A DNA stretch of 64,000 nucleotides. Origin: Hydrogenophaga pseudoflava NBRC 102511. Its GTDB lineage: Bacteria; Pseudomonadota; Gammaproteobacteria; Burkholderiales; Burkholderiaceae_C. The notes under the pieces were generated by a model, which saw nothing but the letters and a program-made list of their open reading frames with translations, was not told where the DNA came from and did no database searches. The stretch lies in the NCBI RefSeq assembly GCF_001592285.1, contig NZ_BCWQ01000007.1, forward strand, positions 1 to 64,000. Reading direction: 5' to 3'. Position 1 is the first letter of the stretch. The number at the start of each line of letters is the position of its first letter. Made by a program: the position numbers and the translations under genes. Of the stretch, positions 13,665-30,074 are shown piece after piece.

Positions 13665-13704
13665 TCATTCCACAACGCCCCAAATGCGGGGCCTGGAGAG
13701 TGAA

Positions 13705-14052
13705 ATGAAAGTCGAATCTTCTGCACCGGACTCCTACATCGGCTCCGTGGCAGGCGGCCCCCAGAAGGCCGCCGAGAAGCCGAACGCAGGCGCCGAAGCC
13801 GCTGCGGCCGGCGGCCTGGCAGCCGCGACGGCCCAGCCCCAGGCCGGCGTGACCGTGACCCTGTCGTCGTCCGCCTCGCAGGCCCTGTCCAGCGGCGGTG
13901 GCAGCGATGTGTTCAACGCCGAGAAGGTGGAGGCCATGAAACAGGCCATCGCCGACGGCAGCTTCAAAGTCAACGCCGAGGCCATCGCCGACAAGATGTT
14001 GTCCAACGCCGCCGAAATGCTCAGCGCCAACACCGGCGCACAGCGCGGCTGA
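13705..14052 (+). CDS. flgM: anti-sigma-28 factor FlgM
   Basis: FlgM binds FliA until the hook is finished and is then exported. The start at 13705 (MKVESSAPDSYIG, 115 residues) is chosen because GGAGAG precedes it; an ATG at 13684 lies before that ribosome site. The C-terminal half has the FlgM helices FNAEKVEAMKQAIADGSFKV and AEAIADKMLSNAAEML, which contact sigma-28. The N-terminal half is Ala/Gly-rich and low complexity, as expected for an intrinsically disordered exported protein. Forms an operon with flgN, 23 bases downstream. Confidence 0.94.
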   Translation: MKVESSAPDSYIGSVAGGPQKAAEKPNAGAEAAAAGGLAAATAQPQAGVTVTLSSSASQALSSGGGSDVFNAEKVEAMKQAIADGSFKVNAEAIADKMLSNAAEMLSANTGAQRG

Positions 14053-14075
14053 TCTTTCTCCCCCAGGAGCAAGCC

Positions 14076-14441
14076 ATGACCCAGCGCACCTCGCCCCACC
14101 CCTGGATTGCCGCCCTGCAGGTCGGCCTGGACGGGCTGGAAAAGGCGCTGCTGCAAGGCGATGCCCCGGCCGTCGAACGTGCCAGCCAGCACGTGCAGGA
14201 TGTGCTGAAAAAGGCCCCGCGCACCGCCGATTTCGGCGTGCCCGGCAGCCGCCTGCGCGACGACATGCAGCAGGCCGCCCACCGCTTCGGTCTGCTGCGC
14301 CAGGCCGTGCTGCGCGCCCAGGCCCAGAGCCAGCGCGCGGTGCAGAGCCTGCTGCCCCAGCAGGCCACCGGCACCTACGGCCGCCTCGCCGGCCAGAACC
14401 CGTCCACCGGTGGCGCAGGCCACGGCTACCTGTCGGCCTGA
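14076..14441 (+). CDS. flgN: flagellar export chaperone FlgN family protein
   Basis: This 121-residue, mainly helical protein directly follows flgM in the place of flgN, the cytoplasmic chaperone for FlgK and FlgL. A Shine-Dalgarno-like AGGAGC lies before the ATG. It has amphipathic helices (WIAALQVGLDGLEKALLQGD, LRQAVLRAQAQSQRAVQSLL) and ends with a Gly/Thr-rich tail. Sequence identity to classic FlgN is low by eye, so the name rests mostly on position and size. It is followed by a strong terminator. Confidence 0.8.
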   Translation: MTQRTSPHPWIAALQVGLDGLEKALLQGDAPAVERASQHVQDVLKKAPRTADFGVPGSRLRDDMQQAAHRFGLLRQAVLRAQAQSQRAVQSLLPQQATGTYGRLAGQNPSTGGAGHGYLSA

Positions 14442-14470
14442 GCGCAGACCCCGTTTCCTTTCACGCTCCC

Positions 14471-14504
14471 CAACAAAAAACCGGCCGAGGCCGGTTTTTT
14501 GTTG
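14471..14504. terminator. bidirectional intrinsic terminator between flgN and the methyltransferase gene
   Basis: A perfect 16-bp stem, CAACAAAAAACCGGCC with its complement, flanks a GA loop. It has an A-tract on one side and a T-tract on the other, so it can stop transcription in both directions between the convergent flgN (+) and the flhB-to-methyltransferase operon (-). Confidence 0.92.
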
Positions 14505-14532
14505 CGCGCCCCGCGCCGTTGGGCGGCGCGGC

Positions 14533-15327
14533 TCACGCCTTCTCGGACGGCGCGTGCATGTGGGTGCCGAAGTAGTTGCTCATGCGGAACAGGGTCTCGG
14601 TGCGCTTGTAGAAGATGATGTACTTCTTGCGCGGGCCGCCGCGCGTGAGGCCGATTTCGGGGGTGCGGAAATCGACGAAACAGCCGTGGTCGGCCGCCAC
14701 CTTGATCAGCGACAGCGGCGTCCAGTAGGCCACGTGCCCCGGCACGAAGGGGTACTGGTGCAGGGCGATGTTGCTGCCGTCGTAGATGTTGGAGCTGCAG
14801 ATCAGGACGCCGTCGTCCTTGAGCAGGCGCAGCAACGACTCGAAGTGCGCCACCGGCTCGGTGAAGTGCTCGATCACCTCGGAGGCGATGACCACGTCCG
14901 ACGGCGTGGCCTCGGCGATGGTCTCGAAGTTCTCGGCCTCCTGCATGTTCTCCAGGTCGACCAGCTTGGTCTGCACCTCGGGGTAGGCGCGCTTGAGCCA
15001 GAGGTGGTCGGTGTTCAGGCCCGAGCCAAAGAAGCTGACGCTGGCGTTGTGCTTGCTCACGATCTCCATGCCCATCTCGGCCATGTAGAACTCGCGGCCC
15101 GGGCGCTCGTCGTTGGCGTTGCGCAGTTCGCGCAGCGCGGCCTCGGACGACTGACGGGCAATGATCTTGGCGTAGTTGCCCAGGTTCTCGGGGTAGCGGA
15201 TCAGGCCGCAGGAGCGGCACTGGTGGCCGCGCATGGTCTTGCCCTGGTACGGCTTGACGCGGCAGGTGTGGGCGACGATGTCTTCTTCACCGCCACAGAC
15301 GGGGCATTGGCTCATGGGGTTCTCCAC
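14533..15327 (-). CDS. zinc-ribbon class I SAM-dependent methyltransferase
   Basis: The 264-residue protein starts MENPMSQ; the second ATG at 15315 is equally possible. The N-terminus has a four-cysteine zinc ribbon, CPVCGG and CRSCGL, about 30 residues apart. A Rossmann-type methyltransferase core follows, with FFGSGLNTDHLWL (SAM-binding Gly loop), VVIASEVIEHFTEP and LLKDDGVLICSSN. This arrangement is common in enzymes of cell-surface glycan clusters that methylate sugars. It is the last gene of the unit that includes fliA, a LicD/fukutin-like protein and a CDP-alditol synthase-like fusion. I infer methylation of the same surface modification; the substrate is unknown. Confidence 0.75.
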   Translation of the reverse strand: MENPMSQCPVCGGEEDIVAHTCRVKPYQGKTMRGHQCRSCGLIRYPENLGNYAKIIARQSSEAALRELRNANDERPGREFYMAEMGMEIVSKHNASVSFFGSGLNTDHLWLKRAYPEVQTKLVDLENMQEAENFETIAEATPSDVVIASEVIEHFTEPVAHFESLLRLLKDDGVLICSSNIYDGSNIALHQYPFVPGHVAYWTPLSLIKVAADHGCFVDFRTPEIGLTRGGPRKKYIIFYKRTETLFRMSNYFGTHMHAPSEKA

Positions 15328-15351
15328 GGTACGGAATGAATGGTTGCGGTG

Positions 15352-16689
15352 TCAGACGCGGGCGATCACGCCCGTGTCGCTGGAACTGAGCAGCTTGGCC
15401 GAGGCCAGCGCCACTTCGTAGGGGCTGAGCAGGGTGCGCTGGTCCTCGCCGGCGAAGTTGCTGCGGCGCATGCCGGTGTCGGTGCGGCCGGGCACGATGC
15501 AGTTGACGCGGATGCCGTCGTCCTTCCATTCGTCCGACAGCGCCTGCGTCAGGTTGACGATGGCCGCCTTGCAGGCCGAGTAGGCCGAGTAGTCGGCGCG
15601 GCCGCGGGTGAACGAGGACGAGGAGAACTGCAGCAGCATGCCCTGCGACTCCTTGAGCGGCGCGTGCGCGCACTGCGCGACGTTGAGCGAGCCGAGCAGG
15701 TTCACCGACACCTGCTGGGCCACGTCGGCGGGCGACTGCTGCTCCAGCGGGCTCTTGATCAGCAGGCCCGCGGCGTTGACCACGTGGTCGATGCGGCCCC
15801 ACTCGTTCATCAGGCGTTCGAAGGTGTCCTCGACCTGGTCGTGGTCGGCGATGTCGCAGCCGGTGCGGCGCGAGACGCTGTGCACCGTGCTGCCGGCTTC
15901 TTCGAGGATCTGCACGATGGCCTTGCCGATGCCGGCGCTGCCGCCGAACACCACCGAGTGCTTGCCCTTGAGGTCCAGGCCGTTGAGGTTGGGCGCGAGC
16001 TGCTGCTGGCGGATGCGGAACAGCTCGTCGGCCAGCACCAAGTCCACCGAGTCGGTGATCTTGATGTTCTCGGAGCTGCCCTTGACGATGCGCACCTGGC
16101 CCATCGGGTGGCAGGCCATGTAGATGCCGCAGTCGTCGGTGAACTCACCCATCTTCTCGGGGCCGATCTCTTCGTAGCTCTTGACCAGGGCGCCGTAGCG
16201 GAAGCCCTGCGGCGTCTGGCCGCGGTAGATGTGGTCGCGCCTGGGGATGTTCTGGATGAAGCCGTCGCGCTCGACAATGATGGTGTCGCTGGTCTTGATG
16301 GCCACATCCACCGCCTCGTGCGATTCGAGCGCGTCGACCACGTCGTGGATGATCTGGTGGCTCAGGAAGGGCCGCGCCGAGTCGTGCAGGATGACGTTCT
16401 TCGGCGGATCGGCGCGCAGGTACTTCAGCGCCGCCCAGGCCGAGGCCTGGCGCGATGAACCACCGACGATGACCTCGGCCCTGGTGCCGCTGAACAGCTT
16501 GCGCGCCATCTCCAGCGCGTCGGCCGGCACTGTGATCACGATGCGCGCCTCGGGCGCGTAGCTGTGCAGGGCCTCGAAGCTGTGCTCCACGATGGTCTTG
16601 CCGGCCACGCGGATGAACTGCTTGGGAATCGGGGAATCGAGCCGGGTGCCGCTGCCACCGGCGAGCAGGACAAAAGCGAAATCGTTCAT
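15352..16689 (-). CDS. bifunctional IspD/TarI-like cytidylyltransferase - SDR reductase (CDP-ribitol synthase-like)
   Basis: A 445-residue two-domain fusion. Residues 1-235 form an IspD/TarI-type cytidylyltransferase with LLAGGSGTRLDSPIPKQF (8-25), HDSARP (102-107) and TPQGFRYG (159-166). Residues 240-445 form a short-chain dehydrogenase with GGSAGIG (249-255), NAAG (305-308) and catalytic YSACK (Y370, K374). This order matches Haemophilus Acs1/Bcs1, which reduce ribulose 5-phosphate and make CDP-ribitol. Fusion to a reductase argues against an MEP-pathway IspD. The start overlaps the upstream LicD-like stop (TGATG), implying translational coupling. It lies in the flhB-fliA transcription unit. 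Product identity (CDP-ribitol or another CDP-alditol) is inferred, not proved. Confidence 0.82.
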   Translation of the reverse strand: MNDFAFVLLAGGSGTRLDSPIPKQFIRVAGKTIVEHSFEALHSYAPEARIVITVPADALEMARKLFSGTRAEVIVGGSSRQASAWAALKYLRADPPKNVILHDSARPFLSHQIIHDVVDALESHEAVDVAIKTSDTIIVERDGFIQNIPRRDHIYRGQTPQGFRYGALVKSYEEIGPEKMGEFTDDCGIYMACHPMGQVRIVKGSSENIKITDSVDLVLADELFRIRQQQLAPNLNGLDLKGKHSVVFGGSAGIGKAIVQILEEAGSTVHSVSRRTGCDIADHDQVEDTFERLMNEWGRIDHVVNAAGLLIKSPLEQQSPADVAQQVSVNLLGSLNVAQCAHAPLKESQGMLLQFSSSSFTRGRADYSAYSACKAAIVNLTQALSDEWKDDGIRVNCIVPGRTDTGMRRSNFAGEDQRTLLSPYEVALASAKLLSSSDTGVIARV

Positions 16690-18302
16690 CACGCCACCTC
16701 TGCAACGGTTCGTTGGTCGTAGGCCGTCTGGAGCAGTTCCAGGGTGTGCGCCGACATGCCGCCGGGGCGGTCCTGGTGCTCGGTCATGATCTGGATCACG
16801 CGCGAGAGCTTCTCGAGCTTGCCCTCGTTGATCGCCTCCAGCGCGCGGATGCGGCCGACGATCTGGAACACCTTGCCACCGACATCGACGGTCGAGGGCG
16901 ACTGCAGGTGCGAGATGTAGTCGGGGTCCGACTGGCGCCAGTTGCCGAAGTTCTCGGCCAGGTTGCGCTCGATGTCGTCGGGCACGTAGAACTCGATGCC
17001 CAGGAAGCCGGTCTTGTGCAGACCGAAGGGCGTGAAGGCGAATTTCTGCAGGTAGCCGAAGTCGGACTGGACACCCGTCACCAGCTTCCCGCCCTCCTCG
17101 TGGTAGACGAAGATGTCGATGCACACCCCGGTCCCGATGTGGCGCACCGGAATGTGGTAGGTCTTGCGGCCGTGCAGGCGCCTCAGGTCCATGCCGAACT
17201 GGCCGCTCTGCAGCAGCGCGTTGACCACCTCGTACTGGTCTTCCCAGCCGATGATGCCGACGTCGATGTCCTTGTCGTGCGCCAGCAGACCGCCTTCGCG
17301 GTGAAACCCCAACAGCGTGCCCGACACCAGAAAGGCCTTCTTGCCGACGGGTTCCAGCGCATTCTGCAAGGCCACCAGTGCCCTGGAGGCCTGCTGCGGA
17401 TCGAAGGTTCGCGACCTTTTGGCCGATGGGGATGCTTTGCCGGTGCGGATCGGATGTTCCGGCTGGGCGGTCTGGGCCGGACCCTGCGGTGCACAGATCA
17501 GCTCAACCACCCGGTCCAGCCAGACCAGTGCCTGGTCCAGGTCACCCAGGAAGCAGTGCGAGCGCGAGATGTCGAAGGCGGCGTGGATGCGCTGTTTCTC
17601 CGCCGTCACGAGTTGGGCCGCCTCGATGGCAGCGGAGTAGTTGCCCGCCTTGAAGTGGCACTGGCTGACGTACAGCGCCAGACGGCTGCGCACCTTGTCG
17701 ACCGCGGGCTGGCGAGCGATCAGGTGGTCGCGGATGCAGCTGTAGGCGCGGGCCAGGGCGCCGGTGTCGGCGGTCTGGGGAATGTGGTTGTGCCGTGAGA
17801 TGAGCACCTGGGTGAAGCGCAGCCAGTCCTGCACGCCGGGCTTGCGGCGCACCAGTTCGCGCACGATCTGCTCCACCAGGTCCAGGCGCAGCTGGTCGAT
17901 GGCCAGTTCGGCGGCGTGGCACCAGTCGTCCAGGGGCCCGTGGCCTTTTTTCAGCGCGGCGGCATCGATCGCGGTCTTCCGGACCACCACCTCGGTGATC
18001 AGGCGCAGCGGATGGCGACCGGGCAGCGTGCCGAGTTCGGCGGTGGGCTCACCCCGCACGATGGACTGGTACACCGCCAGCCAGGCCTGGAAGCGGAAGG
18101 GTTTGGGCAGGTTCTCGACCGCCAGCGAGGCCAGGAAGACGACGGTGGCGTTCCGGCGCAGCACGCGGGCGGCGTCCAGCGTCGGCTCGCTCAGCAGGCC
18201 CTTGGGCATCTCTTCGATGACCAGGGTCTCCAGGGTGGCGTGGTCGCCGCTCTGGAGCAGCTGCTCGATGCGGTTCAGGCGGGGGAATTCGGCTTCGAAC
18301 AT
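16689..18302 (-). CDS. LicD/fukutin-family phosphotransferase-like protein with helical N-terminal region
   Basis: The 537-residue protein has an alpha-helical, TPR-like N-terminal region (about residues 1-290). Its C-terminal LicD/fukutin domain carries SGTLLGFHREGGLLAHDKD and continues into IDVGI, with metal-binding D345 and D347. LicD proteins and animal fukutin/FKRP use CDP-activated alcohols (CDP-choline, CDP-ribitol) to transfer a phospho-alcohol to a glycan. The neighbouring gene looks like a CDP-ribitol synthase, so ribitol-phosphate transfer is the best guess. It starts 30 bases after fliA with AAGGAC as ribosome site and is thus embedded in the flagellar operon. There is no signal peptide or membrane segment, so it should act in the cytoplasm. 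Confidence 0.8.
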   Translation of the reverse strand: MFEAEFPRLNRIEQLLQSGDHATLETLVIEEMPKGLLSEPTLDAARVLRRNATVVFLASLAVENLPKPFRFQAWLAVYQSIVRGEPTAELGTLPGRHPLRLITEVVVRKTAIDAAALKKGHGPLDDWCHAAELAIDQLRLDLVEQIVRELVRRKPGVQDWLRFTQVLISRHNHIPQTADTGALARAYSCIRDHLIARQPAVDKVRSRLALYVSQCHFKAGNYSAAIEAAQLVTAEKQRIHAAFDISRSHCFLGDLDQALVWLDRVVELICAPQGPAQTAQPEHPIRTGKASPSAKRSRTFDPQQASRALVALQNALEPVGKKAFLVSGTLLGFHREGGLLAHDKDIDVGIIGWEDQYEVVNALLQSGQFGMDLRRLHGRKTYHIPVRHIGTGVCIDIFVYHEEGGKLVTGVQSDFGYLQKFAFTPFGLHKTGFLGIEFYVPDDIERNLAENFGNWRQSDPDYISHLQSPSTVDVGGKVFQIVGRIRALEAINEGKLEKLSRVIQIMTEHQDRPGGMSAHTLELLQTAYDQRTVAEVA

Positions 18303-18332
18303 GGGGGTCCTTGGCGGTGGCGAGCGGTCGGC

Positions 18333-19049
18333 TCAGTGCTCCCGCAGCTTGGTGCGCAGGCGGGCGATGGACTGGCTGTGCAGCTGGCAGATGCGCGACT
18401 CGGTGACCCCCAGCACGGCCGCGATCTCCTTGAGGTTCATGTCGTGCTCGTAGTACATGGACATGATGTGCTGCTCGCGCTCGGGCAGGTTCTTGATCGC
18501 CTCCACCAGGGCCATGCGCATGCGCTGGTCCTGCAGCAGGCTCGACGGGTCGGCCTCATCGTCGCCCATGTGGCGGTCCAGGAAGCCTTCGTCGTCGTCG
18601 TCGCGGCCGCTGATGTCTTCCAGGTAGACCAGCTGGGTGCCGCGCACCTTGGCCAGCATGTGCTGGTAGTCGGCCAGGCTCATGCCCAGCTCCGCGGCGA
18701 TCTCGCTCTCCATCGGCGCGCGGTGCAGCTTCTGCTGCAGGCGGTGCACGGCCTGCTCGATGTCCTTCTGGCTCTTGCGCGAGCCGCGGCTCATCCAGTC
18801 GCCCTCGCGCAGCTCGTCGAGCATGGCGCCGCGGATGCGCTGGCTGGCAAAGGTCTCGAACTGCACGCCCTGCGAGGGCTCGAAGCGCGCGATGGCTTCG
18901 GTCAGACCGATCATGCCGACCTGGATCAGGTCGTCGACCTCCACGCTCGGCGGCAGCTTGGCGATCATGTGATGGGCCAGGCGGCGCACCAGCGGGCTGT
19001 ACTTGCGCAACTGGTCGTCCCGGTTGAGGGTGCCTTTGGCGGTGTACAT
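18333..19049 (-). CDS. fliA: RNA polymerase sigma factor FliA (sigma-28)
   Basis: FliA transcribes late flagellar and chemotaxis genes. The start MYTAKGTLNRDDQL at 19049 gives 238 residues; the open frame upstream is within flhG. Region 2 (YSPLVRRLAHHMIAKLPPSV, EVDDLIQVGMIGLTEAI), region 3 and region 4 (NLPEREQHIMSMYYEHDMNL and the HTH LKEIAAVLGVTESRICQL) are all present. It starts 5 bases after the flhG-like gene and is followed by the surface-modification genes. Several matching promoters occur in the window. Confidence 0.97.
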   Translation of the reverse strand: MYTAKGTLNRDDQLRKYSPLVRRLAHHMIAKLPPSVEVDDLIQVGMIGLTEAIARFEPSQGVQFETFASQRIRGAMLDELREGDWMSRGSRKSQKDIEQAVHRLQQKLHRAPMESEIAAELGMSLADYQHMLAKVRGTQLVYLEDISGRDDDDEGFLDRHMGDDEADPSSLLQDQRMRMALVEAIKNLPEREQHIMSMYYEHDMNLKEIAAVLGVTESRICQLHSQSIARLRTKLREH

Positions 19050-19054
19050 GTCGT

Positions 19055-19855
19055 TCAACTCCAGAGTGAGGGCATCGCGCCCACAGGGGACGGCCCGGTG
19101 GCGGCAAACCGGTTGTCGCGCAGACCGTGGAAGGTGTCCAGCCGCTGGGGCCGGGTCAGGGCGTGTTCCTGCGCGCAGGCGGCCCACACGGGCTCGCTCC
19201 AGCGCTCCAGGTCCAGGCCGAGGTGCCGGTCCGCGCAGTCGCAGACCGTGGCCAGCACGGTGTCCGGCGCCTGACCGGGGTCGGCGCTGGCCATGGGCGC
19301 GAGCACCGGGCGGGCACCGGCCATGTGCAGCAGCTTGACCGCGCCGTAGGCGTCGATGGCCGCCTGGGGGTGGGGCAGCACCGGCACCACCACACGCGCC
19401 TGCAGGTCGCTGCACAGCGGCGAGAGCTCGTGGGCGGGGGCGAAGAACAGCAGCAGGGTGCCGCTGGTGAAGGGGGCCAGCAGGCGCGAGAGCGCCACGG
19501 TGCCGCCAGCGGTCAGCGCGGTGCGCTGCAGCGCCCGCAGGCCCTGGGCGGCGGGCATCACCAGCCACTCGTGGCCGTCGGCCGGATGGCCCAGCCCGGA
19601 GATCGCGGGGTCGTTCAGCGCGTGCAGCAGGCCCGGGTGGCTGCCGTCGCCGCTGCGGCGTTCGGCGGTTTCGGTGGCGGTGCCATCCAGGATCACCGGC
19701 AGGCGGCCCTGTGCCCTGAGCTGCGCCGACAGGTGGCACAGCAGTTCGTAGGCGAGGGCGGGCTGGGCCGGGCTGGCCACCGCCAGCAGGGCCGGGCCCT
19801 GGCGCAGCGTGTGGGCGCGCAGGCCGGCCGCCTGGTCGAGGCCGGCTTCAAACAT
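19055..19855 (-). CDS. FlhG/FleN-like protein lacking the P-loop (degenerate MinD-type ATPase)
   Basis: This 266-residue protein holds the flhG position between flhF (8-base overlap) and fliA (5-base gap). The C-terminal half keeps FlhG features: a segment LPHPQAAIDAYGAVKLLHMAG corresponding to the TPEP...DAYA..K motif, and VCDCADRHLGLDLERW corresponding to the RFLG segment. The deviant Walker A motif KGGVGKT is absent: the place near residue 24 reads LAVASPAQPALAYELL. The FlhG acidic Walker B-type residues are also not evident. It should not bind or hydrolyse ATP in the normal way. Known FlhG controls flagellar number with FlhF; a role as a non-catalytic FlhF partner is inferred. Confidence 0.75.
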   Translation of the reverse strand: MFEAGLDQAAGLRAHTLRQGPALLAVASPAQPALAYELLCHLSAQLRAQGRLPVILDGTATETAERRSGDGSHPGLLHALNDPAISGLGHPADGHEWLVMPAAQGLRALQRTALTAGGTVALSRLLAPFTSGTLLLFFAPAHELSPLCSDLQARVVVPVLPHPQAAIDAYGAVKLLHMAGARPVLAPMASADPGQAPDTVLATVCDCADRHLGLDLERWSEPVWAACAQEHALTRPQRLDTFHGLRDNRFAATGPSPVGAMPSLWS

Positions 19856-21362
19856 GGCCAGCCCCCAGCTGGATGCCGCGCGAGGAGGCCTGAGAGAAGT
19901 AGAAGCCCATGTCGGTGGCGACCGGGTCGTAGGCCGATTTGCCCTCGGTGCCCATGGCCACCCGCACCAGGGTGGCGGCGTCGGGGTTCTGCCAGTCCTC
20001 GGGCACGCGCTGGCCGTTGGCCACGCCGCGCAGCACCACCTGGTGGCGGACCAGGGCGTCGATGGCCGGGCCGAGCTTGACGGCCTCGTCGACCTTGGAG
20101 AGCACCACGCCGTGCAGACCGCTGGACTTGAACGAGGTCAGCACATCGTCCAGCGTGTCACCGTGGGAGCCGGCGTTGAGCACCAGCACCTTCTTGACCG
20201 AGGGCATGTCCAGCACGTCCAGCATTTCCTGGATGCGCTGGTCGCGCTGGCCCAGGCCGGCGGTGTCGATGATGACCATGCGCTTGTTCGACAGCAGGTC
20301 CAGCAGGTCCTTGAGCGCGGCGCGGTCGTGCGCCAGGTGGGCGACGACGCCGAGCATGCGGCCGTAGGCGCGCAGTTGCTCGTAGCCCGAGACGCGGTAG
20401 GTGTCCAGGGTGATCAGGCCGACGCTGGCGGCGCCGTGCTGGCGCACGCACTGGGCGGCGAGCTTGGCGGCGGTGGTGGTCTTGCCGACGCCGGTGGCGC
20501 CGATCAGGGCGACCACGCCGCCCTCGTCGCACAGGCCGCTGCCCGGTGTGGCGGTGCGCAGGTTGCGCGTGAGCGTGTCCATCACCCAGCGCACGGCCTG
20601 GCTGGCACCGGTGTCGGCCGGCATGCGTTCGAGCACGGCGCGGGCGATCGCGGGCGAGTAGCCGGCGCGGATGAGCTTGAGCATCATCGTGGACTGGATC
20701 GGGTTCTGCTTGGACGAACCGAGCCAGGCCAGGGTGTTGAAGCGCTCCTCGATCATGTCCTTGAGCGCCGACAGCTCCACCGCCATGCGGCCTTCGCTGG
20801 CCGACGCGGCGCGCTGCTGCAGGTCCTCGCTGTCGGACCAGGCCGGGGCCGGTGCGGCGGGACGGGTGCGGATCGGGGCCGGCTCGGGCGTGGCCATCGG
20901 GGCCTGCGGCATGGCCAGGCGGACCGGCGCGGGGCGCTCGGCCGGGGCCTGCACACGGGCGGCGGGGGCGCGGGGCGCGGCGCTCTCGCGGGCGGCCGGT
21001 GCGCTGTCCCCGGCACCCTCGCCGTCCATGGCGGCGCGGCGCTTGCGCAGCATGCGCTCGCGCACGTACTCCTGGAACGAGAGCGTGCTCATGGCCATCT
21101 GCTCGGTGTCTTCCTGCACCGAGTCGCGGAAGGCGGGCGGATCGGCGCGGCGGGTGCGGATGGCCGGCATGCGCTCCTCGGCGCGGCTGGCCAGCGACCC
21201 GGGCTGGGCCACGGGCGCCAGGCTTTCTTCGGCGGCGGCCATCACTTCAAACCCCCCGTCGGTGGCGCGGCTGGAGAGGATGACGGCGCTGTCGCCAAAG
21301 GCCTGGCGGGCCTTGGCCATGGCTTCGCGCGAGGTCGGGGCGGTGAATCGCTGGATGTTCAT
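19848..21362 (-). CDS. flhF: flagellar GTPase FlhF
   Basis: FlhF is an SRP-type GTPase that sets the position and number of flagella. The 504-residue protein has an N-terminal region (MNIQRFTAPTSREAMAKARQ) and a basic/Pro/Ala-rich B domain to about residue 220. The NG domain follows, with G1 motif GATGVGKTTTAAKLA near residue 285, TLDTYRVSGYEQLRAYG and IDTAGLGQRD. Its start overlaps the flhA stop (ATGA) and its end overlaps the flhG-like gene, indicating coupled translation. Confidence 0.96.
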   Translation of the reverse strand: MNIQRFTAPTSREAMAKARQAFGDSAVILSSRATDGGFEVMAAAEESLAPVAQPGSLASRAEERMPAIRTRRADPPAFRDSVQEDTEQMAMSTLSFQEYVRERMLRKRRAAMDGEGAGDSAPAARESAAPRAPAARVQAPAERPAPVRLAMPQAPMATPEPAPIRTRPAAPAPAWSDSEDLQQRAASASEGRMAVELSALKDMIEERFNTLAWLGSSKQNPIQSTMMLKLIRAGYSPAIARAVLERMPADTGASQAVRWVMDTLTRNLRTATPGSGLCDEGGVVALIGATGVGKTTTAAKLAAQCVRQHGAASVGLITLDTYRVSGYEQLRAYGRMLGVVAHLAHDRAALKDLLDLLSNKRMVIIDTAGLGQRDQRIQEMLDVLDMPSVKKVLVLNAGSHGDTLDDVLTSFKSSGLHGVVLSKVDEAVKLGPAIDALVRHQVVLRGVANGQRVPEDWQNPDAATLVRVAMGTEGKSAYDPVATDMGFYFSQASSRGIQLGAGHV

Positions 21363-23443
21363 GCTGCAAGCTCCCCAAGAATCGGGCCGATACGGATAAG
21401 GTGGGTTTCAGGAATCTCGCTGTGGGCGAGCACCTGCAGGCGCGGCGCGGCGCGGCGCAGCAGGCGGGCCATCGCGGTGCGGATGGCGTCGGGCACCAGC
21501 AGGCAGGCGGGCACGCCCCGCTCTTCCTGCCGGTTGGCGATTTCGGCGGCCGACTTGCTCAGCGTCTCGGCCACACCGGGGTCCAGCGCGCCGGCGCCGT
21601 TGCCGGTCAGCGCCTGCATCAGCAGGCGCTCCAGGCCGGGTTCGATCGCGATGACCTCAAGTTCCTTGACCGAACCGCCGTAAATCTGCTGGACGATGGC
21701 CGGCGACAGCGCGGTGCGCACACGGCGGGCCAGCTCGACGGGGTCGGAGGTGCTGCCGGCGTGTTCGGCCAGGGATTCGATGATGGTGCGGATGTCGCGC
21801 ACGTGCACCGACTCTTCCAGCAGCAGCTGCAGCACTTTCTGGAAGGTGGCGACGGGGACCATTTTTGGCACGACCTCTTCGATCAGTTTCGGGGCCAGGC
21901 GGGTCACGTGTTCGACCAGGTCCTGGGTCTCCGTCCGGCTCAGCAACTTGGCGGCCTGGACTTGCATCAAGTGTGAAAGATGGGTCGCCAGCACGGTCTC
22001 GGAATCAACCACCGTAAAACCGGCCATTTGCGCGTTCTCTTTCTGCTTCTCGTCGATCCAGTGCGCGGGCAGGCCAAATGCGGGGTCCTTGGTGGGGGTG
22101 CCGATCAGCGGCGTGCCCACGCCGCCCGGGTCGATGGCCAGGAACATGCCGGGGAAGACCTCGCCCTCGCCCACCACCACGCCGCGCAGGGTGATGCGGT
22201 AGCCGCTGGGCCGCAGTTCGAGGTTGTCGCGCACGTGCACGGCCGGCGGCAGGAAGCCCACCTCCTGCGCGAACTTCTTGCGCACGCCCTTGATGCGGGT
22301 GAGCAGGTCGCCCTGGCGGTTCTTGTCGACCATGGCGATCAGGCGGTAGCCCAGCTCCAGGCCCAGCAGGTCGACCGGCTGCAGGTCGTCCCAGGTGGCT
22401 TCGCCGTCGCTCGGCGGGGCGGCCGGCTGCTCGGTGGGCTTGGGCCGGCGCTCTTCCTGCAGCCGCCACCAGGCCAGGCCGCCGATGGCCGCGGCAAAGG
22501 CCAGGAACACGAGGTGCGGCATGCCGGGAACGACGCCCAGCAGGAACAGCACGCCCGCGGTGATGCCCAGCACGCGCGAGGACATGAACATCTGCTCGAC
22601 CATCTGCACGCCCAGGTCCTGTTCCTTGCCCACGCGCGAGACCACCATGGCGGCGGCCACCGAGATCAGCAGGCCGGGGATCTGGGCGACCAGCGCATCG
22701 CCGACGGCCAGCAGGATGTAGCTGTCGGCCGCCTCGCCGGCCGACAGGCCGTGCTGGACCATGCCAATGATCAGGCCGCCGATGATGTTGATGAACAGGA
22801 TCAGGATGCCGGCGATGGCGTCGCCGCGCACGAACTTGGAGGCACCGTCCATGGAACCGAAGAACTCGGCCTCCTCGCCCACCTCGGCGCGGCGGCGCTT
22901 GGCCTCCTGCTCGTTGATCAGGCCCGCGCCCAGGTCGGCGTCGATGGCCATCTGCTTGCCGGGCATGGCGTCCAGGGTGAAGCGGGCCGAGACTTCGGCA
23001 ATGCGCTCCGAGCCCTTGGTGATCACCACGAAGTTGATCACCACCAGGATGGCGAACACGATGAAACCGACCGCGAAGTTGCCGCCGATCAGGAAGTGGC
23101 CGAAGGCCTCGATCACCGCGCCGGCGGCGCCGGGGCCGGTGTGGCCCTCCATCAGCACCACGCGGGTGGAGGCGACGTTCAGCGACAGGCGCAGCAGCGT
23201 GGTCAGCAGCAGCACGGTGGGGAAGACCGAGAAGTCCAGCGGCGCCCGCATGTAGGCCGCCACCATCATCACCACCAGCGCGATCGCGATGTTCAGCGTG
23301 AAGAAGGTGTCCAGCACCCAGGGGGCCAGGGGCAGCACCATCATGGCCAGCACCAGCACCACCAGCATCGGGGCGGCCAGGCCCTGGGCCAGCGCGGCGT
23401 GGCGGCCGAACCACTGTTGCAGGAATTTCATTTGGGCGTTCAT
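21359..23443 (-). CDS. flhA: flagellar type III export gate protein FlhA
   Basis: FlhA is the main export-gate protein, with an N-terminal half of about eight membrane helices and a cytosolic substrate/chaperone-docking half. At 694 residues it has typical length. The conserved FHIPEP-family cytosolic loop reads ISEVSARFTLDAMPGKQMAI, followed by DADLGAGLINEQEA. The C-terminal ring domain ends near LIRIGPILGEL. It overlaps flhB by 4 bases upstream and flhF by 4 bases downstream. Confidence 0.97.
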   Translation of the reverse strand: MNAQMKFLQQWFGRHAALAQGLAAPMLVVLVLAMMVLPLAPWVLDTFFTLNIAIALVVMMVAAYMRAPLDFSVFPTVLLLTTLLRLSLNVASTRVVLMEGHTGPGAAGAVIEAFGHFLIGGNFAVGFIVFAILVVINFVVITKGSERIAEVSARFTLDAMPGKQMAIDADLGAGLINEQEAKRRRAEVGEEAEFFGSMDGASKFVRGDAIAGILILFINIIGGLIIGMVQHGLSAGEAADSYILLAVGDALVAQIPGLLISVAAAMVVSRVGKEQDLGVQMVEQMFMSSRVLGITAGVLFLLGVVPGMPHLVFLAFAAAIGGLAWWRLQEERRPKPTEQPAAPPSDGEATWDDLQPVDLLGLELGYRLIAMVDKNRQGDLLTRIKGVRKKFAQEVGFLPPAVHVRDNLELRPSGYRITLRGVVVGEGEVFPGMFLAIDPGGVGTPLIGTPTKDPAFGLPAHWIDEKQKENAQMAGFTVVDSETVLATHLSHLMQVQAAKLLSRTETQDLVEHVTRLAPKLIEEVVPKMVPVATFQKVLQLLLEESVHVRDIRTIIESLAEHAGSTSDPVELARRVRTALSPAIVQQIYGGSVKELEVIAIEPGLERLLMQALTGNGAGALDPGVAETLSKSAAEIANRQEERGVPACLLVPDAIRTAMARLLRRAAPRLQVLAHSEIPETHLIRIGPILGELAA

Positions 23444-24597
23444 TCAGCGGCTCCCCGGGTCGGCGGTTGCTTCCAGTGCGGATCGAGTTCGGGCGGCACC
23501 TGCGGATCGGGCGCGGCGCCGGGCATGGCGCCACGGCCGGCGAGCGCGGCCTTTAGCTGGTAGACGTAGGCCAGCACCTGGGCCACCGCGGTGTAGAGGG
23601 CGGAAGGGATTTCCTGGTCGAGTTCGGCGTGGGCGTAGAGCGCGCGCGCCAGCATGGGCGACTGCAGCACCGGCACCTTGTGGTCCTTGGCCACATCGCG
23701 GATGCGCAGGGCCAGCAGGTCGGCGCCCTTGGCGATCACGCGCGGCGCGCTCATGGTGGCGTCGTCGTACTGGATCGCCACCGCGTAGTGGGTCGGATTC
23801 ATCACCACCAGGTCGGCCTTGGGCACGGCGCCGATGCTCATGCGGTGCGCCAGCTCGCGCTGGCGGCGGCGGCGCTGGCCCTTGACGTGCGGGTCGCCTT
23901 CGTTCTGCTTGTGTTCCTGCTTGACCTCTTCGCGCGACATGCGCAGCCGCTGGGCGTGCAGGAACTTCTGCATCGGGAAGTCGATGAGCGCGAACAGCGT
24001 CACCACCCCCAGCAGGATGCCCACGCCGGTGCGCATCCACTGCGCCAGCTGGCCCAGGCCGCCCTCCAGCGGCTGCAGCAGCAGGCTGGCGAAGCCGGCG
24101 ATGTGCGAAGAGAGGAACTTCCAGCCCACAAAGCCGACGATGACGGTCATCACCGCCAGCTTGACGGTCTCGAACAGCTGCTGCTTGGAGAACAGGCGCC
24201 CCAGCCCGGCGAGGGGGCTGAGCCGGGTCAGGTCCGGGGCCATGGTGTGGGTGGTCAGCGTCCAGCTGCCCGAGGCGAAGGCGGCGAACACGGCCAGCGC
24301 CAGGGTGGCCACGCCCAGCGGCAGGAACACCACCAGGCCCAGGCCCAGGCTGTCGTGCAGGCGCTCGATCAGCAGCTGGGGCTGCAGCAGGGCACCGTGG
24401 TCAAAGCGCAGCTGCGAGGCCAGTGCCACCTGCAGACGGGAAAAGCCCATCGGCAGCAGCAGCATCAGCAGCACCGCGCCCCCGCCCAGCACCGCGAGGT
24501 TGGACAGCTCCTTCGAACGCGGCAGCTGGCCCTCCTCGCGCGCCTTCTTCAGGCGGTGCGCGGTGGCCGGCAGGTTCTTGTCTTGGGAGGAGGACAT
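23440..24597 (-). CDS. flhB: flagellar type III export switch protein FlhB
   Basis: FlhB controls the switch from rod/hook to filament export. The 385-residue protein has four membrane helices in its first 220 residues and a C-terminal cytosolic domain with the autocleavage motif NPTH at residues 267-270 (VVMNPTHYAVAIQY). The tail is Pro-rich. It heads the flhB-flhA-flhF-flhG-fliA-licD-like unit. An inverted repeat directly precedes the start codon, and the visible ribosome site is weak. Confidence 0.97.
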   Translation of the reverse strand: MSSSQDKNLPATAHRLKKAREEGQLPRSKELSNLAVLGGGAVLLMLLLPMGFSRLQVALASQLRFDHGALLQPQLLIERLHDSLGLGLVVFLPLGVATLALAVFAAFASGSWTLTTHTMAPDLTRLSPLAGLGRLFSKQQLFETVKLAVMTVIVGFVGWKFLSSHIAGFASLLLQPLEGGLGQLAQWMRTGVGILLGVVTLFALIDFPMQKFLHAQRLRMSREEVKQEHKQNEGDPHVKGQRRRRQRELAHRMSIGAVPKADLVVMNPTHYAVAIQYDDATMSAPRVIAKGADLLALRIRDVAKDHKVPVLQSPMLARALYAHAELDQEIPSALYTAVAQVLAYVYQLKAALAGRGAMPGAAPDPQVPPELDPHWKQPPTRGAAE

Positions 24598-24600
24598 CGG

Positions 24601-24626
24601 TCTGACTCAGGAAAACTTGAGTCAGA
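24601..24626. repeat. perfect inverted repeat in the flhB leader
   Basis: TCTGACTCA and TGAGTCAGA, nine bases each, flank an 8-base spacer and end 4 bases before the flhB ATG (minus strand). It could form a hairpin covering the flhB ribosome-binding region, or serve as an operator. Function is not known. Confidence 0.6.
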
Positions 24627-24657
24627 TTGTGGAAGTCGGCCCCCGAAATGAATGCGT

Positions 24658-24679
24658 GAAAAGGCGGTGAAGCACCGCC
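24658..24679 (-). terminator. intrinsic terminator after cheZ (overlaps a possible FlhDC box of flhB)
   Basis: On the minus strand GGCGGTG-CTT-CACCGCC is followed by TTTTC, 29 bases past the cheZ stop. It looks like a short intrinsic terminator of the motAB-cheYZ unit. The same bases lie between AATAGGG and CCTTTT, which resemble the half-sites seen before fliF, so it may also be part of the flhB control region. Confidence 0.55.
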
Positions 24680-24707
24680 CTATTCCCCCAGCGCGAAAAC
24701 TGAAAAC

Positions 24708-25322
24708 TCAGAATCCGAGGGAAGCGAGAAGATCGTCGACGTCCTTCTGGTCGGCCACCACGTCGGTGCGGCCTTCGGCGTCGACCACCGGCCCTTCCAG
24801 GGCGTTCATGTCGTAGGCCTTGTCCTGGCCCGGGGCGCCGGCGGGCGCCGACTGCAGCAGCAGGGCCAGCAGCTGTTCCTCGATGGTGGCGGCCAGCTGC
24901 ACCACCCGGTTGATCACCTGACCGGTGAGGTCGTGGAAGTCCTGCGCCATCATGATCTCGGTCAGGCGCGCGTCGCTCTTCTCGCTCAGCTCGACCACGT
25001 CCCTGGACCAGCTCAGCAGCTCGGGCATGGCCCTGGCCAGACCCGGCACCCCGGCAATGGTGGAGGTCAGCTGGCGCCCGCGTTCGGCAATGGCCTCCTG
25101 CTCGGACTTGGCGCCGTCCACGTGGTTGAGCACCTTCTCGGCCGCCTCGCCGGTGAGGCGGGCGATGTAGGAGAGCCGGCTCTGGGCGTCGGGCAGCTGG
25201 TCGACCGTGCCCTTGAGCTTGTCGGCGTACCCCAGTTCCTTCAGGGCGTCGTGCAGCTGGCGCGTGATGGAGCCCAGTTGCTGGAACATTTCCGGATTGC
25301 CCGGGCTGTTGCTGGTGGACAT
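24708..25322 (-). CDS. cheZ: CheY-P phosphatase CheZ
   Basis: CheZ removes phosphate from CheY-P. The 204-residue protein has the catalytic helix motif MMAQDFHDLTGQ at residues 124-135 with the catalytic glutamine Q127. The C-terminal CheY-binding tail is VDDLLASLGF, nearly identical to the E. coli tail. Long helices between them form the four-helix bundle. It follows cheY by 17 bases and is the last gene of the motAB-cheYZ unit. Confidence 0.97.
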   Translation of the reverse strand: MSTSNSPGNPEMFQQLGSITRQLHDALKELGYADKLKGTVDQLPDAQSRLSYIARLTGEAAEKVLNHVDGAKSEQEAIAERGRQLTSTIAGVPGLARAMPELLSWSRDVVELSEKSDARLTEIMMAQDFHDLTGQVINRVVQLAATIEEQLLALLLQSAPAGAPGQDKAYDMNALEGPVVDAEGRTDVVADQKDVDDLLASLGF

Positions 25323-25339
25323 GGGAACTCCCGCTGGGC

Positions 25340-25726
25340 TCAGAGGCCGAGTTTCTTGAAGATGTTGGCGAGCTTGTCTTCCAGCGTGGCCTTGGTGAAC
25401 GGCTTGACGATGTAGCCCGCCGCGCCGCCCTGTGCGGCCATCACGATGTCTTCCTTGCGCGCCTCGGCCGTCACCATCAGGACCGGCAGGTGCTTGAGCG
25501 CCTCGTCCTTCTTGATCTCGGCCAGCAGCTGGAAGCCGTTCATGTTGGGCATGTTGATGTCGCTGACGACAAAGTTGAAGGACCCGTTCCTCAGCTTGTT
25601 GAGCGCGATCACCCCGTCTTCCGCCTCGTCGGCGTCGGCGTGACCGATCTCCTTGAGCAGGTTGCGCACGATGCGGCGCATGGTGGAGAAGTCGTCAACG
25701 ATCAGGAATTTCATCGGGGTGGACAT
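25340..25726 (-). CDS. cheY: chemotaxis response regulator CheY (motor-linked copy)
   Basis: A 128-residue single receiver domain. The start [12 protein letters not shown] at 25726 follows AGGAGA; longer frames are not credible. Acidic pocket D11/D12, phosphorylation site D56 ([12 protein letters not shown]), T86 and K108 (YIVKPF) are all in place. The sequence is of the enterobacterial CheY type that binds FliM. It sits between motB and cheZ. A second, more divergent CheY lies at 47430 before cheA. Confidence 0.96.
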
Positions 25727-25757
25727 GGTGGGGTCTCCTGTCAGGAAACAGTGGCGG

Positions 25758-26840
25758 TTAGCGGGGCTTGACTGGCCCAGCCTCTTCCCGGGGTTTCGGC
25801 ACTTCTGCCAGTTTCTGAAGATCGGGCAGCCCCAGCGGCAGTTGGCGCACCGGCGCGACGAGCGGTTCGGCCTGGGGAACGGCCGTTTCTGCACCGGCCG
25901 GTGGCGCCGGCACGGCCCCTGCGGCAGGCCCGGCGGGCGCCTCGGTGGCGGGCGGGCGCAGCGCGGTGCCGTCGCCGATGGGCGCCATGCGCTCCTCGGC
26001 CTCGCGGGTCATGACCAGGATGCTGATGCGCCGGTTCATCGGTGCGTCGGGCTGGTTGACGTCCAGCAGCCGGCTGGAGGCCAGGCCCTCGACACGGGCG
26101 AGCTTGTTGTCGGGCAGGCCGCCGGCCACCAGCTCGCGGCGCGAGGCGTTGGCGCGGTCGGCCGACAGCTCCCAGTTGCTGTAGCCGCGGTCGCCGCTGC
26201 CGTAGGGCGTGGCGTCGGTGTGGCCCGAGAGGGCGAGCCGGTTGTCGATGTCGCCGATGGCCCCGCCGATCTCGCGCAGGATCTGGCGCATATAGGGTTT
26301 GACCATGGCACTGCCGACGTCGAACATGGGGCGGTTCTGGTCGTCGACGATCTGGATCTGCAGCCCGTCGGCGGTCTTCTCCATGCGGATCTGCGACTTG
26401 AACTCGGACAGCGCCGGGTTGTTCTCGACCAGCTCGTTGAGCTTGGTCTGCAGGGCGTCAAGGCGCAGGGCGTCCCGGCGGGCGAGCTCGGCCCGCGCCA
26501 TCTGCGCGCCCATGAGCTTGGCCGCGCGTTCGGCGTCGCCGGTGTCGACCTGGCCTTGCCGGCGCGAGAGGTCCTGGCCACCGCCGGGCAGCACGGAGTC
26601 GCTGTTGCCGGTGCCGCTGCCGCCCAGCAGCGTGACCTTGACCGGGTTGGAGAAATAGTCGGCGATGCCCTTGAGGTCGCCGGAGGAGGTGGACCCCAGC
26701 AGCCACATCAGCAGGAAGAAGGCCATCATGGCTGTCACGAAGTCGGCGTAGGCGATCTTCCACGCACCGCCGTGCGCAGCGTGCGCGCCTTTCTTGACGC
26801 GCTTGACGATGATGGGCTGAAGCTTCTTGCCGTCGGCCAT
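25758..26840 (-). CDS. motB: flagellar motor stator protein MotB
   Basis: MotB anchors the stator to peptidoglycan and carries the proton-binding aspartate. Starting at the ATG at 26840 ([10 protein letters not shown]; a GTG one codon upstream is possible) the protein has 360 residues. It has a single membrane helix [20 protein letters not shown] with D33 and an OmpA-like peptidoglycan-binding domain ([26 protein letters not shown]). The C-terminal tail after about residue 285 is Pro/Ala-rich. The ATG overlaps the motA stop codon (TGATG). Confidence 0.97.
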
Positions 26841-29249: not shown

Positions 29250-30074
29250 ATGAGCACCATCAACACCAACGTGCAGTCCCTGAACGCACAACGCAACCTG
29301 GCCCAGTCCACCGGTTCGCTGTCCACCTCGATGCAGCGCCTGTCTTCCGGCCTGCGTGTGAACACCGCCAAGGACGATGCCGCTGGTCTGGCCATTGCCG
29401 AGCGCATGAACGCGCAGGTCAAGGGCATGAACGTGGCGATCCGCAACGCCAACGACGGCATCTCCCTGGCGCAGACCGCTGAAGGCGCGCTGGGCAAGAT
29501 CGGCGACGCGCTGCAGCGCATGCGCGAACTGGCCGTGCAGTCGGCCAACGGTTCGAACTCCGACGACGACCGCGCCAACCTCGACGAGGAATACCAGGAA
29601 CTGGCCGCGGAAGTGACCCGAGTGCTCACAGGCACCAAGTTCAACGGCACCAACCTGCTGAACACCTCGGCCTCCCTGACCTTCCAGGTCGGCGCCGACA
29701 ACGTGACCACCGACCAGATCGACATCGACACGACCGACCTGACCGCCGGTTCGGGCGTGACGGCCGTCGTGGGCGGCGCCATCGCCACCAGCTCCGGCGC
29801 GCTGGCCGCCATGGACGACCTGGACAACGCCATCGACGAAATCACGACCGCCCGCGCCACCTTCGGTGCCAAGCAGAACCGCTTCGACTCGGTGATCGCC
29901 AGCCTGCAGATCTCGTCCGAGAACCTCGCGGCCTCCCGCGGCCGCATCATGGACGCGAACTTCGCGGTGGAAACCTCGAACCTCTCGCGTGGCCAGATCC
30001 TGCAACAGGCCGGCACCGCCATGGTCGCCCAGGCCAACCAGCTGCCCCAGGGCGTGCTGTCCCTGCTGCGCTGA
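29250..30074 (+). CDS. fliC: flagellin
   Basis: Filament subunit of 274 residues. The conserved N-terminal D0/D1 helices (MSTINTNVQSLNAQRNL, LSSGLRVNTAKDDAAGLAIA) and C-terminal helices (ANFAVETSNLSRGQILQQAG, ending LPQGVLSLLR) are intact. The central part between about residues 140 and 200 is very short, with Thr/Ser-rich stretches, so the filament should lack large D2/D3 domains. Ribosome site TTTAGGAG precedes the ATG. It is the only flagellin gene in the window and is read from a sigma-28 promoter. Confidence 0.98.
   Translation: MSTINTNVQSLNAQRNLAQSTGSLSTSMQRLSSGLRVNTAKDDAAGLAIAERMNAQVKGMNVAIRNANDGISLAQTAEGALGKIGDALQRMRELAVQSANGSNSDDDRANLDEEYQELAAEVTRVLTGTKFNGTNLLNTSASLTFQVGADNVTTDQIDIDTTDLTAGSGVTAVVGGAIATSSGALAAMDDLDNAIDEITTARATFGAKQNRFDSVIASLQISSENLAASRGRIMDANFAVETSNLSRGQILQQAGTAMVAQANQLPQGVLSLLR

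Follow-up and report, generated by a model that had tools for sequence, protein, structure and literature searches.

Flagellin glycans that contain a phosphodiester from a cytidine diphosphate (CDP)-activated donor are known from C. difficile type A (CD0240-0244) and from the b-type flagellin of P. aeruginosa PAO1 (PA1088-1091), as far as the available portions of two reports describe them (PMC10714395, PMC11833859). In capsule synthesis, the available text of PMC11666461 describes Cps7C, an enzyme with two crucial aspartates that transfers polyol phosphate from a CDP-polyol. Bacterial ISPD-LicD fusion proteins are noted in the accessible part of PMC4873967, so that the pairing of a CDP-donor synthase with a transferase is already known in bacteria, and ribitol biosynthesis is mentioned for two strains carrying flagellin islands of FGI type 12 (PMC4875605, from the part available). 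Here we analyze a three-gene cassette directly behind the flagellar sigma factor gene fliA of Hydrogenophaga pseudoflava NBRC 102511 (genome of 4.5 Mb in 43 contigs); the window examined is a 64,000-nucleotide stretch, positions 1 to 64,000 of contig NZ_BCWQ01000007.1. The cassette encodes a phosphotransferase with a tetratricopeptide repeat (TPR) arm and an FKRP-like domain, a fused cytidylyltransferase-short-chain dehydrogenase/reductase (SDR), and a methyltransferase with four conserved cysteines (Cys4). Together, these genes probably constitute a cytoplasmic flagellin-modification system that operates via a CDP-alditol and FKRP-like transfer.

An earlier note on this DNA had placed a LicD/fukutin-type transferase, a cytidylyltransferase-SDR fusion and a zinc-ribbon methyltransferase behind fliA, and knew of no described flagellar system of this kind. 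The genes are where it placed them, as three open reading frames (ORFs), all open, on the minus strand: 18302-16689 (P0001, 537 aa), 16689-15352 (P0002, 445 aa) and 15327-14533 (P0003, 264 aa). Its statement about novelty holds in part: a literature search with most subscription journals outside its coverage turned up no report of flagellin as the substrate of a LicD/FKRP-like transferase. In its wider form the statement is too broad, given that CDP-donor phosphodiesters on flagellin, ribitol genes in flagellin islands, a TPR-FKRP-like capsule transferase and ISPD-LicD fusions all appear in the available parts of the reports cited above.

The cassette is tightly packed against the flagellar genes. 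Only 30 bp separate fliA (sigma-28; 18333..19058, minus strand) from the P0001 gene; the one-base overlap (TGATG) reported between P0001 and P0002 is present, and 24 bp lie between P0002 and P0003. Upstream, flhB, flhA, flhF and flhG (19055..24597, minus strand; named from sequence and order) and fliA each overlap the next, and as judged from gene order the whole arrangement is compatible with one transcription unit. None of the three cassette proteins contains a membrane-like hydropathy window, in contrast to FlhA and FlhB.

P0001 (16689..18302, minus strand) combines two regions. Its C-terminal part, residues 298-537 (16692..17411, minus strand), adopts an FKRP-like nucleotidyltransferase (NTase) fold in an AlphaFold2 model built with ten homologues (pLDDT 87.5, pTM 0.82). 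All 13 PDB chains retrieved with this model by Foldseek at E<=1e-3 were human FKRP, and VIA-align gave the best FKRP chain a Z of 16.0 (root-mean-square deviation 3.1, 156 residues aligned, match to residues 298-463), compared with 12.7 for the next fold, ANT(2''). A profile of ten P0001 homologues (A1) matched two TPR-like designed proteins (1.1e-6 and 2.8e-5) and then FKRP (4.2e-4), with the FKRP match spanning the D-x-D-x-D motif. Within the metal-site motif (17250..17345, minus strand), D343, D345 and D347 align to the FKRP motif; together with D396 (17115-17117) they are invariant in 10 of 10 aligned rows, and the LicD metal site anticipated from the sequence is therefore kept. In FKRP the metal-site aspartates are D360, D362, D364 and D416, according to the available part of PMC6965139. 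We assign D396 as the counterpart of D416 on the basis of an h[DE]h motif rather than a printed alignment. The Pfam LicD model (PF04991) scored P0001 below its cut-off of 22.6 bits (17.9 for the whole protein, 21.2 for the C-terminal 241 aa), and we file the enzyme as an FKRP/LicD-like NTase fold and not as a member of Pfam LicD; the LicD/fukutin-type identity first proposed is nonetheless borne out by the fold and profile comparisons, both of which give FKRP. Two relatives do pass the LicD cut-off: L125 (24.4 bits), which has a clear TPR array, and L124 (22.8 bits). From the model, P0001 is predicted to use a CDP donor for the transfer of alditol phosphate.

A TPR-like helical array, absent from the earlier note, makes up the N-terminal ~270 residues. 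This region (residues 1-273; 17484..18302, minus strand) has 16 helices in the model and matches TPR superhelices, including OGT, in Foldseek at E 1e-3 to 1e-2. In nine of nine comparisons its conservation is below that of the catalytic part (e.g., 46.6% versus 73.8%), as expected for a part that would bind the acceptor; relaxed constraint would look alike.

P0002 (15352..16689, minus strand) would supply the donor, and is a predicted CDP-alditol (CDP-ribitol) synthase. Its IspD/TarI-like domain comes first (residues 1-230; 16000..16689; Pfam IspD, E 3.9e-47) and is followed in the same protein by an SDR domain (residues 237-445; 15355..15981; adh_short, E 1.4e-34), both on the minus strand. 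The SDR residues N330, S357/S358, Y370 and K374 are intact, as are the Rossmann motif GGSAGIG and R274, with N305 a further candidate for the asparagine position; the roles of N330, S357/S358, Y370, K374 and R274 are those usual for the family. The best solved relative is the ribitol-5-phosphate cytidylyltransferase 4jis. A profile search ranked two ribitol-5-phosphate cytidylyltransferases first in the PDB (6.1e-44, 2.3e-41), then 3f1c and 2vsh, which we take to be TarI (their PDB names read MEP-enzyme, for methylerythritol phosphate), and then 4kt7 (1.7e-33).

The relationship of the cytidylyltransferase domain to IspD and TarI was examined in a tree of 23 rows: nine fused enzymes, ten IspD-type sequences and four labelled TarI, two of which (3f1c and 2vsh) carry that label on our assumption. 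The tree was rebuilt after one IspD-like row with a very long branch (L127) had been dropped; one IspD-type row, L136, was retained and has no ispF motif in its 3.7 kb. IspD rows split from the rest at 100/100, and the fused rows lie between the IspD and TarI rows. Elsewhere the genome has a separate ispD adjoining an ispF motif. A housekeeping IspD role for P0002 was rejected on these two grounds, in line with the view that the fused protein is not a true IspD. The proposed likeness to the fusions Acs1/Bcs1 is supported by domain architecture and SDR residues; by score the closest proteins are ribitol-5-phosphate cytidylyltransferases, although P0002 stays below the NCBIfam cut-off and 100/100 apart from the TarI rows. 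A class-wide search with the IspD-like domain found no further fused enzyme: besides the source genome, 9 of 369 genomes matched, with open frames of 237-327 aa.

The third protein, P0003 (METHYLTRANSFERASE; 14533..15327, minus strand; Methyltransf_23, E 5e-9), has class I methyltransferase motifs and four cysteines, C8, C11, C37 and C40, that are invariant in nine of nine rows. Its structure model is of low confidence (pLDDT 66.8). The first matches were nucleotide-sugar C3-methyltransferases, with KijD1/TcaB9 best, and because the model is poor we treat them as a mere lead, one that would have P0003 act on the donor or its precursor. The true start of P0003 may be the ATG at 15315, four codons in and behind GGAG, rather than the GTG at 15327.

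To place the cassette in its genus, we surveyed the interval behind fliA in 67 Hydrogenophaga genomes, 52 of which had a fliA match at E<=1e-60; omission of a fragment in G174 left 51 loci (50 others plus the window). Genes were called with our own codon-score gene finder, so that start codons are its choice. In 11 of the 50 loci, including those of H. flava and H. pseudoflava, no flgN was found within the stretch covered, and one locus runs out at the end of its contig. The interval between fliA and flgN is a variable cargo slot in Hydrogenophaga. It is empty in three loci (L081, L082 and L092), with fliA-flgN gaps of 95-170 bp, and spans <0.4 kb in a fourth (L075). P0001 matches occur in ten of the 67 genomes; in eight, the window included, the match lies directly behind fliA with both partner genes, and H. 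flava NBRC 102514 and H. pseudoflava CZa25-1 are among these module carriers. The other two are a divergent copy without the fused gene, on the same contig as a flagellin gene and 11 kb away from it (G159), and a partial match for which no flagellar neighbor was found (G211).

Other slots hold different candidates for flagellin modification at the same position. Four contain a PF01973 protein of 638-666 aa, and these account for all PF01973 matches of the 67 genomes; we call them Maf-like on the assumption that Maf flagellin glycosyltransferases carry this domain. Cluster c60 occupies two slots, and its L068 copy, the one of the two members that was scanned, belongs to glycosyltransferase family 2 (GT2). 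A co-directional gene lies within 50 bp of fliA in 12 of the 51 loci, and these genes are LicD-like in seven cases (window included), Maf-like in three and c60 in two, with nothing else represented. The eighth LicD-like gene (L024) is 193 bp from fliA by gene call and ~40 bp by alignment; the fourth Maf-like gene is at 110 bp. Elsewhere the slot contains chemotaxis receptors, among them the methyl-accepting receptor c42, a gene block (c23) that recurs and includes a periplasmic binding protein for transport, the acyltransferase c47, and unscanned genes, the family scans of slot proteins having covered 9 + 4. Chance packing of the cassette behind fliA was considered as an explanation and rejected on the survey of 51 loci.

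Several observations on the slot stand apart from this comparison. Across the genus (L064-L106, L024-L033) it is a cargo hot spot that ranges from empty (~0.1 kb) to ~10 kb. In G185 (L064:2388-9069) it encodes a HAD-domain protein of 811 aa together with a protein of 1391 aa that combines the methyltransferase domains Methyltransf_11 and FkbM, possibly another flagellin-modification set. Large HAD-domain proteins recur in flagellar loci (L123:5869-8406; cluster c20 in L064, L077, L079, L080, L083 and L094), with N-termini that look alike by eye, and one copy sits directly behind a LicD-fused-gene pair. In G155 (L030:3472-6866) four extra genes follow the module, encoding a HAD hydrolase, a glucose/sorbosone dehydrogenase, NnrU and a NUDIX protein.

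Outside the genus, the module is rare: in a family-wide sample of 150 genomes P0001 matched 2, its profile matched 14 of 399 across the order, and a class-wide search matched 5 of 369. One genome of another genus in the same family (G582) carries the whole module in the fliA slot. In a sister genus (G087), the LicD-like and fused genes are divergent from two flagellin genes and adjoin a HAD-domain protein plus the pseudaminic-acid genes pseB, pseC and pseF, each above its equivalog cut-off. A genome of another family (G444) has a TPR-LicD protein beside fliC, fliD and fliS. Among the 11 near-full-length homologues (nine from Hydrogenophaga, including the window, plus G087 and G582), all have a flagellar gene on the stretch covered and ten have the fused gene next door. 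Compared with the window, G582 is 84% identical in the fused enzyme, 79% in the methyltransferase and 75% in FliA, whereas a carrier of the window's own genus (G153) shows 77%, 63% and 89%, respectively. Because the cassette proteins of G582 are closer to those of the window than its FliA is, the module appears to be not only rare but transferred between genera.

More distant relatives extend the donor theme. TagD-type cytidylyltransferase genes directly adjoin the relatives in L124 (184.0 bits) and L149 (155.5 bits; TIGR01518 cut-off 165.4), a weaker one (88.7 bits) lies ~5 kb from the relative in L148, an IspD-like protein accompanies the relative in L127, and in L126 a CTP_transf_like domain is part of the same chain, whose LicD-like part was detected by profile A1 only. 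Since distant relatives thus pair with other CDP-donor enzymes, CDP-polyols are supported as donors of this transferase group. The TPR-LicD-like gene in L127 (8314-10658) overlaps that of the IspD-like protein, whose branch is very long, and no flagellar gene was found in the vicinity; this is possibly an independent pairing of transferase and donor enzyme. In one genus (f16), transferase relatives of 513-524 aa (L126, L128, L130 and L131) stand beside ORFs that resemble calcium-binding repeats by eye; L126, the one of them that was scanned, has a cytidylyltransferase-like domain at its end.

The neighborhood survey that the earlier note had called for favors flagellin as the target, and from gene context flagellin is the likely substrate of the cassette. 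The proposed acceptor, fliC (29250..30074, plus strand), was identified by its Flagellin_N match; the only other such match of the genome (3034-3423) lies inside a flgL-like ORF. All 12 carriers and relatives tested have flagellin. Carrier and relative flagellins look unremarkable, with 274-284 aa for 11 of 13 (the pattern did not recover the other two), and give no hint on sites. Family scans identified no glycosyltransferase among the three cassette genes, and of the glycosyltransferase families PF01973 and PF13844 (GT41), the two searched in the window's genome, neither has a match; two of the eight slot carriers (G162 and G188) do have a GT41 match. Of the features by which flagellin islands are recognized, this locus has variable cargo near flagellin or fliA with modification genes, and does not have the glycosyltransferase.

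The remaining features of the window bear on the borders of the cassette. The terminator predicted after the third gene corresponds to an inverted repeat of 16 bp (14471..14504) that is perfect and carries A/T tails; it probably terminates transcription both ways, separating the module from flgN. flgN (14076..14441, plus strand) forms the far border of the slot and flgM lies at 13684-14052, both named from sequence and order. A general terminator scan of the region returned five candidates versus 5.5 expected from shuffles, i.e., chance level. No sigma-70-type promoter was found in a scan of 14000-25800; because 0.5 was expected by chance and terminators were at chance level, the promoter scan says little. 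Cassette GC (0.65-0.67) is near that of the surroundings.

We propose the following scheme. D-ribulose 5-phosphate is the most likely pentulose-5-phosphate substrate of the SDR domain of the fused enzyme, which would reduce it with NADPH; the cytidylyltransferase domain would then activate the pentitol phosphate with CTP to yield CDP-ribitol. Methylation of the alditol, or of a precursor, is an optional step probably carried out by the methyltransferase. The TPR arm of the FKRP-like enzyme would bind flagellin, or a sugar already on flagellin, and its catalytic domain would transfer alditol phosphate from the CDP donor, releasing CMP and forming a phosphodiester. Flagellin modified in this way, in this presumed order of steps, would then be exported by the FlhA/FlhB apparatus. 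Since the cassette has no glycosyltransferase and the genome no PF01973 or PF13844 match, direct attachment is possible, and we tentatively entertain a version in which the enzyme puts (methyl-)ribitol phosphate on Ser/Thr of flagellin in the cytosol, without a core sugar. If true, this would be a protein O-phosphoalditol transferase with an OGT-like layout (TPR arm plus catalytic domain) and an FKRP-type catalytic domain.

The identity of the alditol is the point on which this scheme meets its closest competitor, namely that flagellin is modified from a CDP-alditol other than CDP-ribitol, with xylitol, arabinitol, a hexitol or a C-methylated polyol made with the help of the methyltransferase as its alditol. 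P0002 missed both NCBIfam cut-offs, that for ribitol-5-phosphate cytidylyltransferase (155.4/166 bits) and that for IspD (TIGR00453; 168.4/181.3 bits), and the alditol is therefore not identified by family; the tree splits the fused enzyme from the TarI rows as cleanly (100/100) as from IspD, with the fused clade itself at only 83/78, so that neither an IspD nor a TarI identity holds. This intermediate position and the missed ribitol-specific cut-off fit another alditol, as do the low-confidence methyltransferase model, with its best matches to the nucleotide-sugar C-methyltransferases KijD1/TcaB9, and a Campylobacter IspD-family enzyme that makes CDP-6-D-glucitol together with a reductase (PMC10918830, from the part available). 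Ribitol is favored by the closest solved structures of P0002, which are ribitol-5-phosphate cytidylyltransferases, by the use of CDP-ribitol by FKRP, the best fold match of the transferase, and by homologues stated to be fused to ribulose-5-phosphate reductase in the accessible text of PMC4873967. We regard a different alditol as rather unlikely, and ribitol as the candidate best suited to the scheme. Far less plausible is that P0002 duplicates an enzyme of the MEP pathway and has unrelated passengers for neighbors. Its N-terminal domain does match IspD models strongly, but the genome has its separate ispD beside ispF, the fused rows split from ten IspD-type rows at 100/100, and the LicD-like and fused genes remain linked in 10 of the 11 near-full-length cases; we give this explanation hardly any credence.

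The acceptor raises a different question, and the findings that weigh against flagellin, like those above on the alditol, deserve to be set out together. In ten of the 14 order-wide relatives the stretch covered contains none of the window's flagellar genes, although these ten (eight of one genus, G413 and G487) are more distant and match mainly over the C-terminal half; the three new class-wide relatives have no flagellar gene by eye within 13 kb. PF01973 is not Maf-specific, with matches in 4 of 14 control genomes, all archaea. Many slots carry genes unrelated to glycosylation (receptors, transporter parts), and position in the slot is therefore no proof, by itself, of a role in flagellin modification. 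Moreover, Cps7C, the nearest characterized architecture, uses CDP-glycerol on a capsule linker and not on protein, according to the available text (PMC11666461). An alternative explanation is that the cassette decorates an envelope glycan, such as lipopolysaccharide or a capsule linker, and sits behind fliA only for co-expression with motility. LicD enzymes act on lipooligosaccharide or teichoic acids in the partly available sources, Cps7C builds its capsule linker with the same TPR-FKRP architecture (same source and portion), and distant relatives adjoin TagD-type genes away from flagellar genes. Yet Maf-like and GT2 proteins occupy the same position in other species, relatives stand beside flagellin genes in two other genera, and neither a polymerase nor an exporter is encoded in the cassette. 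On balance we judge an envelope target improbable, and flagellin modification via a CDP-alditol remains the reading we prefer.

If flagellin modification by this route is correct, the CDP-ribitol/fukutin chemistry of dystroglycan, teichoic acids and capsules would also act on a bacterial protein fiber, and flagellin modification would gain both a donor and a transferase family that are new to it. The host bacteria are cultivable and have a single short flagellin, and would offer a simple soluble system in which FKRP-type catalysis and the recognition of acceptors could be studied. The interval behind fliA in Hydrogenophaga can also be read as a catalogue of candidate enzymes for flagellin modification, one taking the place of another.

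Set against described systems, the cassette most resembles C. difficile type A and PAO1 b-type flagellin modification in its logic: as the available portions of those reports present it, a proposed CDP-activated small molecule is moved with its phosphate to form a phosphodiester on flagellin, and a methyltransferase belongs to the set. There, according to the same portions, the proposed donor is CDP-(methyl)threonine, a core sugar is attached first, CD0244 is TagF-like and PA1091 joins a GT2 to a phosphotransferase, whereas P0001 has an FKRP-like NTase fold with a TPR arm, the donor enzyme here is an IspD-SDR fusion, and the cassette lacks a glycosyltransferase. With Cps7C of Actinobacillus pleuropneumoniae serotype 7, compared by description, P0001 shares the N-terminal TPR and FKRP-like NTase domain; Cps7C belongs to a capsule locus without a flagellar link, as far as the available text describes it (PMC11666461), while the present cassette lies in a flagellar gene cluster. 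The Acs1/Bcs1 CDP-ribitol synthase of Haemophilus influenzae, again compared by description, is likewise a cytidylyltransferase-reductase fusion, presumably with the IspD-like domain before the SDR in Acs1 as in P0002, but it serves a capsule. The animal ISPD-fukutin/FKRP system likewise pairs a CDP-ribitol synthase with a ribitol-phosphate transferase, and this transferase shares fold and metal site with P0001. The acceptor in animals is a glycan on dystroglycan, and FKRP differs in its N-terminal stem and in having a zinc-finger loop, in the partly available sources; the cassette transferase is bacterial, has no membrane segment and carries a TPR arm. Flagellin islands of Enterobacteriaceae also consist of variable, horizontally exchanged cargo beside fliA, located between fliC and fliA rather than between fliA and flgN; they carry glycosyltransferases, and the available part of PMC4875605 mentions no LicD/FKRP-like transferase. 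The reaction logic of the Hydrogenophaga cassette is one already proposed for flagellin and its enzyme families are different; it is a real, rare and apparently transferred set of genes for what is probably a variant form of flagellin modification.

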